Assembly: GCA_020832185.1 (NCBI GenBank)
Contig: JAFIFE010000014.1
Location: forward strand, 62,001 to 126,000
DNA: 64,000 bases
Origin: Alkalibacterium sp.
GTDB taxonomy: Bacteria > Bacillota > Bacilli > Lactobacillales > Carnobacteriaceae_A
Reading direction: 5' to 3'
A program made the translations under genes and the position numbers. The notes beneath the pieces are model-generated. The model had not been told where the DNA came from. It saw nothing but the letters and a program-made list of their open reading frames with translations, and made no database searches. Positions 38,046 to 41,231 of this stretch are shown here, in pieces (position 1 is the stretch's first letter; each line of letters starts with the position of its first letter).

Positions 38046-39459
<1,414 letters not shown>

Positions 39460-39489
39460 AAAAAAAGAGCCGATGGTTCGACTCTCTTA
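39460..39489 (-). terminator. Terminator overlapping the end of the HemA-like gene
   Basis: AGAGCCGA (39466-39473) / TCGACTCT (39478-39485) with a TGGT loop; in the minus-strand RNA the C/A position is a G-U pair, followed by seven U. The stop codon of the HemA-like gene lies at the base of the stem. Confidence 0.8.
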
Positions 39490-40629
39490 AACGTGGTGAC
39501 CTATTTTTTTGACAAAACACATTTGATTGCTTTTAAACCTCTTTTTAACCGGTTTTGGCAACACTTCACATTCCTGAATCTGATTATAATGGGCCATATA
39601 CTGACTGGTCGTTCCTGTAATCAATTCATCATATGCTGTACGAGCTGCCTCTACCTTGTCTTCCACAAACATTTTCTTTGGTTCATCATCTATATGTTTA
39701 TAGACTAATGTTTCAAATTTTGAAAAGACGGTCTCATCCTGTGTGGAACTAAAATCAAAAAACAGCTGCTGCTTCAATGTAGGTCTGAGTACATGCATTT
39801 CATTGATCAGTTCTTCTGAAATCCAGGTATTTTTCTCAGAAGGCCCAATGATGATGGCATCTGATTTAGCCAAACGGTAAAGCAGTTGAGAGGAGTCCAC
39901 GACATGGATATTTTTAAGCCATTTAGACTGATTGGTAATCTTCAGCCATTGCTTCAGTTCTTCAACAGACCGCTGAGATTCACTGCTTCGGTTCAGCACC
40001 GTGAGTGAGCCATATTCAGACCCTGACAGATGTTTGATTACCTGATTCGTCAGGCCTTCGCTTCCTATGACAAAATAATGGCCGACATTATAGTCCTCGA
40101 GAGTAGATTTGATCAGCCTCACTGCTCTGGACACATCCCCTTGAAGTAACGGTTCGATTGCTTCTTTTTCACACAGTTCAAGTGAAAAGTCCACAACTTT
40201 CTTAAACAGTGAATGCAGAACATTTCCTGCTGTATCTTCTTCAACTGCATTCATCAAAGCATTGTCAATCACATCTACTGGTTCATATGTGTGATTTTTT
40301 GACAGCTCAATGTTACTTGATACATGAAGGAGATGTTTAACAACATCCTCATTAAATTTGCTGTATGTTTCAAGAATCACTTCTTCAAGCATCTTATTGG
40401 TGTATTGGGATAAGTAGCGCAGCAGATCCCCATGCTTAAAATCTTTCTCGTCTACAAATAGATAATATTCATTTCTGTTATCTGTGACAAGCAGGACAAC
40501 TTCTTCAACACCATCGAATGCAGAGATGTCTCTTAAATGTTCTCTGCGATCTGACTGTGTCAAACTGTATTTGTGTATATCCTCGGATGAGACAGTGTCT
40601 CTATTCACTCCATACATTAACAGTTTCAT
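39487..40629 (-). CDS. Glutamyl-tRNA reductase-like protein lacking the catalytic Cys (probable pseudoenzyme)
   Basis: A 380-aa protein that lines up with HemA over its length: residues 1-60 (Y-G-V-N-R-D-T ... D-N-R-N-E-Y-Y-L-F-V-D-E) match the catalytic domain, residues about 180-290 the NADPH domain (F-V-I-G-S-E-G-L ... L-N-R-S; S-D-A-I-I-I; F-F-D-F-S-S), and the following helix the spinal region (H-I-D-D). The catalytic Cys50 of S-T-C-N-R-T-E is Asp50 here; His99 is kept; the G-x-G-x-x-G loop and the G-E-x-Q motif are lost, and the C-terminal dimer domain is cut short. It overlaps engB by 4 nt, the slot hemA occupies near ysxC in Bacillus. No other heme gene is present. Real function unknown. 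Confidence 0.8.
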   Translation of the reverse strand: MKLLMYGVNRDTVSSEDIHKYSLTQSDRREHLRDISAFDGVEEVVLLVTDNRNEYYLFVDEKDFKHGDLLRYLSQYTNKMLEEVILETYSKFNEDVVKHLLHVSSNIELSKNHTYEPVDVIDNALMNAVEEDTAGNVLHSLFKKVVDFSLELCEKEAIEPLLQGDVSRAVRLIKSTLEDYNVGHYFVIGSEGLTNQVIKHLSGSEYGSLTVLNRSSESQRSVEELKQWLKITNQSKWLKNIHVVDSSQLLYRLAKSDAIIIGPSEKNTWISEELINEMHVLRPTLKQQLFFDFSSTQDETVFSKFETLVYKHIDDEPKKMFVEDKVEAARTAYDELITGTTSQYMAHYNQIQECEVLPKPVKKRFKSNQMCFVKKIGHHV

Positions 40630-41231
40630 TCCGTCTCATTCCTTGTGTAGCTCAAAATTTCTTCCCAAATCTCATCACGACCTTCTCTGTTTAGAGAAGA
40701 AAACGTAAAGAATTTATCTTCAGGTTCGAATCTGAGCGCTCGTTTGATTATACCCTCGTGCTTATTGTATTTTGACTTTTTAATTTTGTCGGCTTTTGTC
40801 CCTATAACTAAAACAGGGATATTATAGTATTTATATAAATCATACATTTGCACATCTAAATCTGATGGTTCATGTCTGAAATCAACTAATAAAATACCAA
40901 GTGCCAGTTCTTCTCTGGTCGCAAAGTATTCAGTCATCATTCTGCCCCATTTTTCCTGCTCGGCATTGGAAACTTTGGCATATCCGTATCCTGGAACATC
41001 AACAAAAAACAATTCTTTTTCAATATTAAAGAAGTTAAGCGTACGTGTCTTACCGGGTTGTCCCGACGTACGAGCTAATTTTTTTCGATTGACCATCGTA
41101 TTAATAAAGGAAGACTTTCCTACATTGGATCTCCCCGCCAGAACGATCTCTGTCAGGCCATCCTCGGGATACTGTGAAGGAGACACGGCACTTATTGTAA
41201 TCTCAGCATAATTTATTCGATCGCTGTTCAT
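40626..41231 (-). CDS. engB: Ribosome biogenesis GTPase EngB (YsxC/YihA)
   Basis: GTPase for 50S assembly. The 201-aa protein has G-R-S-N-V-G-K-S-S-F-I-N (G1, residue about 30), D-V-P-G-Y-G-Y-A (G3) and G-T-K-A-D (G4). GGAGGAG lies upstream of its ATG. It follows clpX, whose terminator is between, and overlaps the HemA-like gene by 4 nt (ATGA). Confidence 0.97.
   Translation of the reverse strand: MNSDRINYAEITISAVSPSQYPEDGLTEIVLAGRSNVGKSSFINTMVNRKKLARTSGQPGKTRTLNFFNIEKELFFVDVPGYGYAKVSNAEQEKWGRMMTEYFATREELALGILLVDFRHEPSDLDVQMYDLYKYYNIPVLVIGTKADKIKKSKYNKHEGIIKRALRFEPEDKFFTFSSLNREGRDEIWEEILSYTRNETE

Follow-up and report, generated by a model that had tools for sequence, protein, structure and literature searches.

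Glutamyl-tRNA reductase (GluTR; HemA or GtrR, profile TIGR01035) is the first enzyme of the haem pathway, and several of its structures have been solved (1gpj, 4n7r, 5che and 5yjl). The N-domain of the enzyme holds the catalytic Cys, as stated in PMC6399207. In Bacillus and Staphylococcus, a gtrR-hemX-haem operon is described in PMC5801465, and there the enzyme is active and the haem pathway follows it. When we searched titles and abstract openings of the open-licence literature, none dealt with an inactive GluTR or with the HemA of Carnobacteriaceae. PMC11528492, on a cryptic plastid, contains the terms "glutamyl-tRNA reductase" and "pseudoenzyme", and PMC8017148 contains "Carnobacterium" and "aminolevulin".

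We analysed a 64,000-nucleotide stretch of Alkalibacterium DNA (the window), which carries a gene related to gtrR of this operon (Table 1). Its product resembles GluTR in having the N-domain and the Rossmann fold, a location near engB, and the residues His99, Arg52, Glu54 and Asp60. The product differs from GluTR, however: 24 of the 25 proteins in the group formed by it and its close relatives lack the catalytic Cys, half of the active site has been lost along with the NADPH loop, the dimerisation domain is absent, the score falls below the family cut-off, and the genomes contain no hemB, no hemC and no hemL above cut-off. Annotation of the gene as a glutamyl-tRNA reductase would be wrong.

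The open reading frame starts with ATG at 40629 on the minus strand, and many stops interrupt the plus strand over the same interval. We take the preceding gene to be engB (ysxC/yihA), which encodes a ribosome-assembly GTPase, and the following gene, named from its sequence, to be obg. The preliminary description had reported an intact frame coupled to engB by 4 nt and no haem-biosynthesis gene after it; in accordance with this, the frame is open, its start overlaps the end of engB by 4 nt, and obg comes next.

Table 1. Features of the locus, with positions in the window.
Feature	Position	Strand	Basis
HemA-derived protein (putative GluTR pseudoenzyme), 380 aa	39487..40629	-	ORF, profile and structure matches
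Residues 1-105 (N-terminal), with the beginning of the GluTR catalytic domain; the portion conserved in the family	40315..40629	-	
Codon 50: Asp where GluTR carries the catalytic Cys	40480..40482	-	alignment
Codon 99: His, kept from the active site of GluTR	40333..40335	-	alignment
Residues 161-320, Rossmann-like, nucleotide loop without its second Gly	39670..40149	-	
ATGA 4-nt overlap of engB stop and HemA-derived start	40626..40629	-	
engB (ysxC/yihA)	40626..41231	-	
obg, the downstream neighbour in the window as in the 13 further f1 regions examined	38046..39347	-	

The product matched the Pfam profiles GlutR_N (E 4e-14) and Shikimate_DH (E 4.9e-7) above the Pfam cut-offs. The NCBI profile TIGR01035 (hemA) matched with an E of 3.6e-22 and 78.9 bits, and its curated cut-off of 209.55 was not reached. 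Among solved structures, the closest relative was plant GluTR (4n7r, E 2.4e-5), which was the sole match with E < 0.001. The homology of the product to GluTR is well above chance. The N-terminal G-x-N-x-x-T motif noted earlier is also present and reads G7-V-N9-R-D-T12.

We then compared the predicted fold with GluTR structures. An AlphaFold2 model built from 25 relatives (pLDDT 84.7, pTM 0.80) contains the GluTR N-domain, a Rossmann-like domain, the start of the spinal helix and a low-confidence tail (residues 356-380). The top seven Foldseek matches in the PDB were all GluTR chains (4n7r, 6.5e-18). When the whole model was superposed using VIA-align, the Z-scores were 21.4 for 5che (330 residues, 13.1 Å), 21.3 for 4n7r (333 residues, 12.4 Å) and 18.7 for 1gpj (321 residues, 7.9 Å), and the best non-GluTR fold reached 13.5, with 3.1 Å over 135 residues in the Rossmann part. 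The rmsd values of 7.9-13.1 Å against the solved GluTRs suggest that the domain angles are different. The N-domain modelled alone (pLDDT 89.6) matched GluTR with a Z of 18.4 and an rmsd of 1.9-2.0 Å over 150-151 residues; 1gpj gave a Z of 14.7 and the next unrelated fold 6.1. Together with the GlutR_N match, this comparison bears out the derivation from GluTR proposed in the preliminary description. The truncated C terminus mentioned there is also evident, in that the protein ends 26 aa past the modelled spinal helix (residues 323-354) and lacks the dimerisation domain beyond the helix start.

The family to which the window genome belongs (f1) is represented by 27 genomes from nine genera, four of the genomes being less than 90% complete. 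The HemA-derived gene directly follows engB in 25 of them, covering eight of the nine genera. The other two (G010 and G013) also lack engB, and we therefore take them as putative assembly gaps. The window was compared with 13 other f1 regions, and in all 14 the gene lies between engB and obg. The frames of all 25 members are intact and encode 335-385 aa; apparent internal stops in the copies of G012 and G018 were rejected, since the matches ran beyond the true stop and both ORFs are intact. A profile search across the order (395 genomes) gave a match in 90 genomes, namely 25 of f1, 12 of the nearest family (f2) and 53 weaker ones. The nearest family was defined by the HemA gene tree and not by the species tree. 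The 12 f2 matches have open frames of 457-513 aa and E-values of 4e-71 or better. The 53 weaker matches, mostly of 416-471 aa, were judged by length, with the active site read in L028, L029 and L030. In the class search, 272 of 299 genomes had a match above the hemA cut-off, and 11, including the window genome, had only matches below it. HemA-profile matches were also seen within open frames of 748-764 aa in G261, G328 and G332 (family f5), which are perhaps fusions with another enzyme.

For the active-site comparison, we used 40 reference HemAs that carry the TCNR motif. Thirty came from Bacilli, being the best-scoring loci of the class search with some near-copies among them, three from family f7 and seven from f2. 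The HemAs of L080-L114 were located by TCNR (35 of 35 had the motif), cut 49 residues before the Cys and given a Met at residue 1. The Cys50 numbering and M1 are thus fixed by construction in these rows; the untrimmed L001, L023, L024, L028 and L030 number alike, and L029, whose first residues are missing here, numbers one less than the other untrimmed rows. We take Cys50 and His99 to be the catalytic residues in E. coli GluTR numbering. When the window protein was aligned with HemAs having their own start (L023, L024, L028 and L030), D50 fell on Cys50 and H99 on His99, as originally claimed. Scoring of column 50 in the 25 f1 proteins beside engB gave D in 11, E in 10, S in two, N in one and C in one, so that 21 are acidic and one has Cys. 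By parsimony, this column requires at least four acidic/non-acidic changes over the whole tree, counting the one by which the acid was gained, and six or more D/E swaps among the 21 acidic f1 rows.

The rest of the active site was scored in the same way. Near-invariant columns (at least 39 of the 40 HemAs) numbered 60, or 59 without the script-written start Met; the window protein keeps 22 of the 59, and only 13 are kept in at least 20 of the 25 f1 proteins. First, H99, E54 and D60 are kept in all 25, R52 in 22, and T, S or N at position 49 in 23; the window protein retains R52, E54 and D60. Second, S109, G113, E114, Q116 and Q120 of GluTR are kept in only 4, 9, 2, 1 and 1 of the 25, respectively, and the window protein has none of the first four. 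Third, the first Gly of the GxG in the NADPH loop is kept in 23 and the second in two; the window protein has G189 and E191 at these positions, consistent with the worn glycine loop that had been described for its Rossmann-like region. Finally, the last HemA alignment columns, corresponding to the C-terminal dimerisation part, are gaps in at least 20 of the 25.

The one f1 protein with Cys at position 50 (L025:1501-2514 of genome G017, 338 aa, motif SECQRLEYY) is otherwise dismantled, and its Cys was either retained or regained. This Cys and the mostly kept T/S/N49, R52, E54 and H99 leave room for a residual ligand pocket or another chemistry.

The remnant pocket might still bind tRNA-Glu by its glutamyl end, or else free glutamate, which would make the protein a sensor or sequestering protein for Glu-tRNA-Glu. 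The residues kept at positions 49, 52, 54, 60 and 99 and the unchanged fold of the N-domain speak for such a role. However, the pocket residues from S109 to Q120 are mostly gone, the dimerisation domain is absent, and the protein is net acidic (residues 1-355: f1 mean -17, window protein -22), a charge that is unfavourable for bulk RNA binding; we regard this role as unlikely. The preliminary description had offered tRNA-Glu binding or NADPH binding as the possible function. Both are guesses, the acidic charge counting against bulk RNA binding and the degraded nucleotide loop against NADPH. An enzyme with a changed mechanism, in which the acidic residue in place of Cys50 would hydrolyse or modify an acyl substrate together with H99, is still harder to support. 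The prevalence of D or E at position 50 and the repeated swaps between them look like a kept charge, but the S, N and C found there in the remaining proteins and the loss of the second half of the pocket make it quite improbable.

The haem pathway was examined in the same genomes. No hemB or hemC was found in the 27 f1 genomes, and the same searches matched in 11 of 14 control genomes. A hemL above cut-off was found in none of the 27; matches far below the cut-off in 11 of them were taken as other aminotransferases. Cytochrome bd subunit I (cydA) was also found in none of the 27. The f1 bacteria seem unable to make haem, and we rejected ALA synthesis in f1, since no HemL above cut-off, HemB or HemC was found there. 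The protein could alternatively be a haem-responsive regulator that has retained the known haem feedback of GluTR without the pathway. The abundance of Staphylococcus aureus GluTR responds to haem according to PMC5801465, but the absence of cytochrome bd subunit I, hemB and hemC from all 27 genomes renders a regulator of this kind very unlikely.

The f2 set comprised 15 genomes, the 12 with a HemA match and G027, G035 and G048. A hemL above cut-off was present in 12 of the 15, and cytochrome bd subunit I in six, four of these among the 12 with HemA; hemB was found in none of the 15 and hemC in one (G116). Full-length HemA-type frames together with HemL were found in G042, G055, G062, G076, G083, G090, G103, G116, G123, G130, G137 and G144, and Cys50 was seen in all seven f2 HemA proteins that were read. 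In L041 (9065-11742), HemA is followed by hemL (654.7 bits) with a 4-nt overlap. These 12 genomes seem able to make ALA, without a known tetrapyrrole enzyme that uses it. The full-length f2 HemAs (L023, L024 and L080-L084) share with the HemA-derived protein the N-domain residues described below and the locus after engB, and they are nearest to it on the tree; unlike it, they have kept the TCNRTE Cys and the dimerisation part, coexist with a hemL above cut-off, and do not overlap engB. In three genomes of family f3 (G036, G043 and G049), hemC was above cut-off, and neither hemB nor, with this query, HemA gave a match.

In a quick IQ-TREE analysis of 65 proteins, with SH-aLRT as the only support measure, all 25 f1 proteins fell into a single clade (100), which was joined with f2 (100) on a branch of 1.59. 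The f2 proteins did not come out as a resolved clade. The program also warned of long branches, namely end branches of up to 5.6 in f1 and that of L030, so that the order inside f1 and its exact place beside f2 are unsure. Within f1, residues 1-105 had a mean pairwise identity of 58%, and the other parts one of 26-28%. The matching parts of the 33 HemAs outside f1 and f2 gave 63% and 58-69%, indicating that the constraint in f1 has shifted to residues 1-105. Ten residues in this part (K2, Y6, Y21, G40, Y55, F64, H66, G67, L70 and I85) are present in 23-25 of the 25 f1 proteins and in all seven f2 proteins but in none of the 33 others. L57 and Y72 show the same f1/f2 pattern with L030 as the exception (one of the 33 others), and R71 (five of the seven f2 proteins and five of the 33 others) and Y89 (six of the 33) are weaker markers. 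Since the ten residues are common to f1 and f2 and absent from the others, a putative new surface is apparently older than the loss of catalysis in f1. The simplest inference from these sequences is that the ten changes arose in the f1/f2 ancestor before f1 lost Cys50; they could also reflect plain shared ancestry without a new function.

Full-length Nei-Gojobori dN/dS was measurable in six of 15 pairs with more than 60% identity (0.064, 0.071, 0.087, 0.099, 0.105 and 0.114), values that are rough because dS exceeded 1.7 in four of the six; the remaining nine pairs were saturated. The measured values correspond to purifying selection. That the gene is a decaying hemA remnant not yet lost is hardly credible and was rejected: the Rossmann part does evolve fast and some members are very divergent, but all 25 frames are open, dN/dS is 0.06-0.11 and the proteins form one clade across eight genera. 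The earlier view that the gene is kept by selection for a role other than making ALA is upheld by its retention beside engB in 25 of 27 genomes, the purifying selection, the single clade and the lack of hemB, hemC and hemL above cut-off.

The spacing between the gene and engB differs among the families. In f1, 21 of the 25 genes begin with a 4-nt overlap with the engB stop and one with a 1-nt overlap, and gaps of 2, 34 and 44 nt separate the two genes in the other three. Seven f2 loci, from the 12 genomes with HemA, show gaps of 85-134 nt when starts are chosen by alignment, and these values depend on the chosen start codon, longer starts being possible in some. In f7, the gap is about 124 and 148 nt at two loci (or 127 and 154 if counted up to the first codon that matched), and engB lies elsewhere in the third genome compared (G059). 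Among the 30 Bacilli loci, engB was recognised upstream in 18, at a distance of 358-891 nt, and was not recognised within 1.5 kb upstream in the other 12. The comparison of the f1 overlap with these wider gaps makes the tight coupling look derived in f1. Covariation of pairwise distances was also calculated, and the partial correlation between the HemA-derived protein and EngB was -0.16 (66 pairs, 12 loci), while EngB gave 0.63 with obg, 0.55 with tig and 0.70 with clpX. The partial values of the HemA-derived protein with rnz, recJ and tpr were 0.49-0.56, but fast-evolving genes are prone to cluster in such a test. The link to ribosome assembly raised in the preliminary description is supported by the gene coupling and not by distance covariation with EngB, and the acidic charge also speaks against it; the link itself is still a guess. 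The overlap, absent in three of the 25, could be only a regulatory convenience.

Based on these observations, we suggest that the protein is probably a catalytically dead descendant of GluTR that is kept as a non-enzymatic binding protein and made together with EngB; the loss of catalysis and the binding function are both inferred. The dismantled active site, the strong selection and the engB overlap make a new non-enzymatic job probable. In this proposal, the common ancestor of f1 and f2 would have lost hemB and mostly hemC while HemA stayed, and the N-domain of this HemA would have gained the ten residues K2 to I85 and, less exclusively, L57, R71, Y72 and Y89. In f1, HemA would then have been stripped of Cys50 and of the second half of its active site, and its NADPH loop and dimerisation domain would have gone as well. 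The f1 genome would also have lost hemL, and the HemA gene would have become coupled to engB. The protein would most likely bind its partner through residues 1-105. Since its start overlaps the engB stop and joint translation is probable, ribosome assembly or translation would be the likeliest setting, although this setting, taken on its own, is a guess with less than even odds. If the binding-protein proposal is correct, a family without the searched haem-pathway genes keeps the first enzyme of that pathway in a dead form, which would imply an unrecorded second role of GluTR, and f2, which has HemA and HemL and lacks HemB, may represent an intermediate step.

A more specific course of events can be imagined, in which the second job came first and the enzyme was lost later. 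An orphan HemA would have gained the surface in the f1/f2 ancestor, f2 would be a living intermediate with both enzyme and surface, and f1 would keep the surface only, as an EngB-coupled factor of translation or ribosome assembly. This sequence of events is speculative and rather doubtful; if true, it would be a stepwise case caught with its intermediate still alive.

Two minor observations were made on the f1 loci. In L050:5174-7531 (genome G008), two ORFs on the opposite strand lie between clpX and engB, and the pair of engB and the HemA-derived gene is intact. The C-terminal tail (39490-39564 in the window) closes with KKISYKV or KRISYKV in L004, L007, L008 and L009, which are of the same genus, and looser forms of this ending are found in the window protein and in L002.
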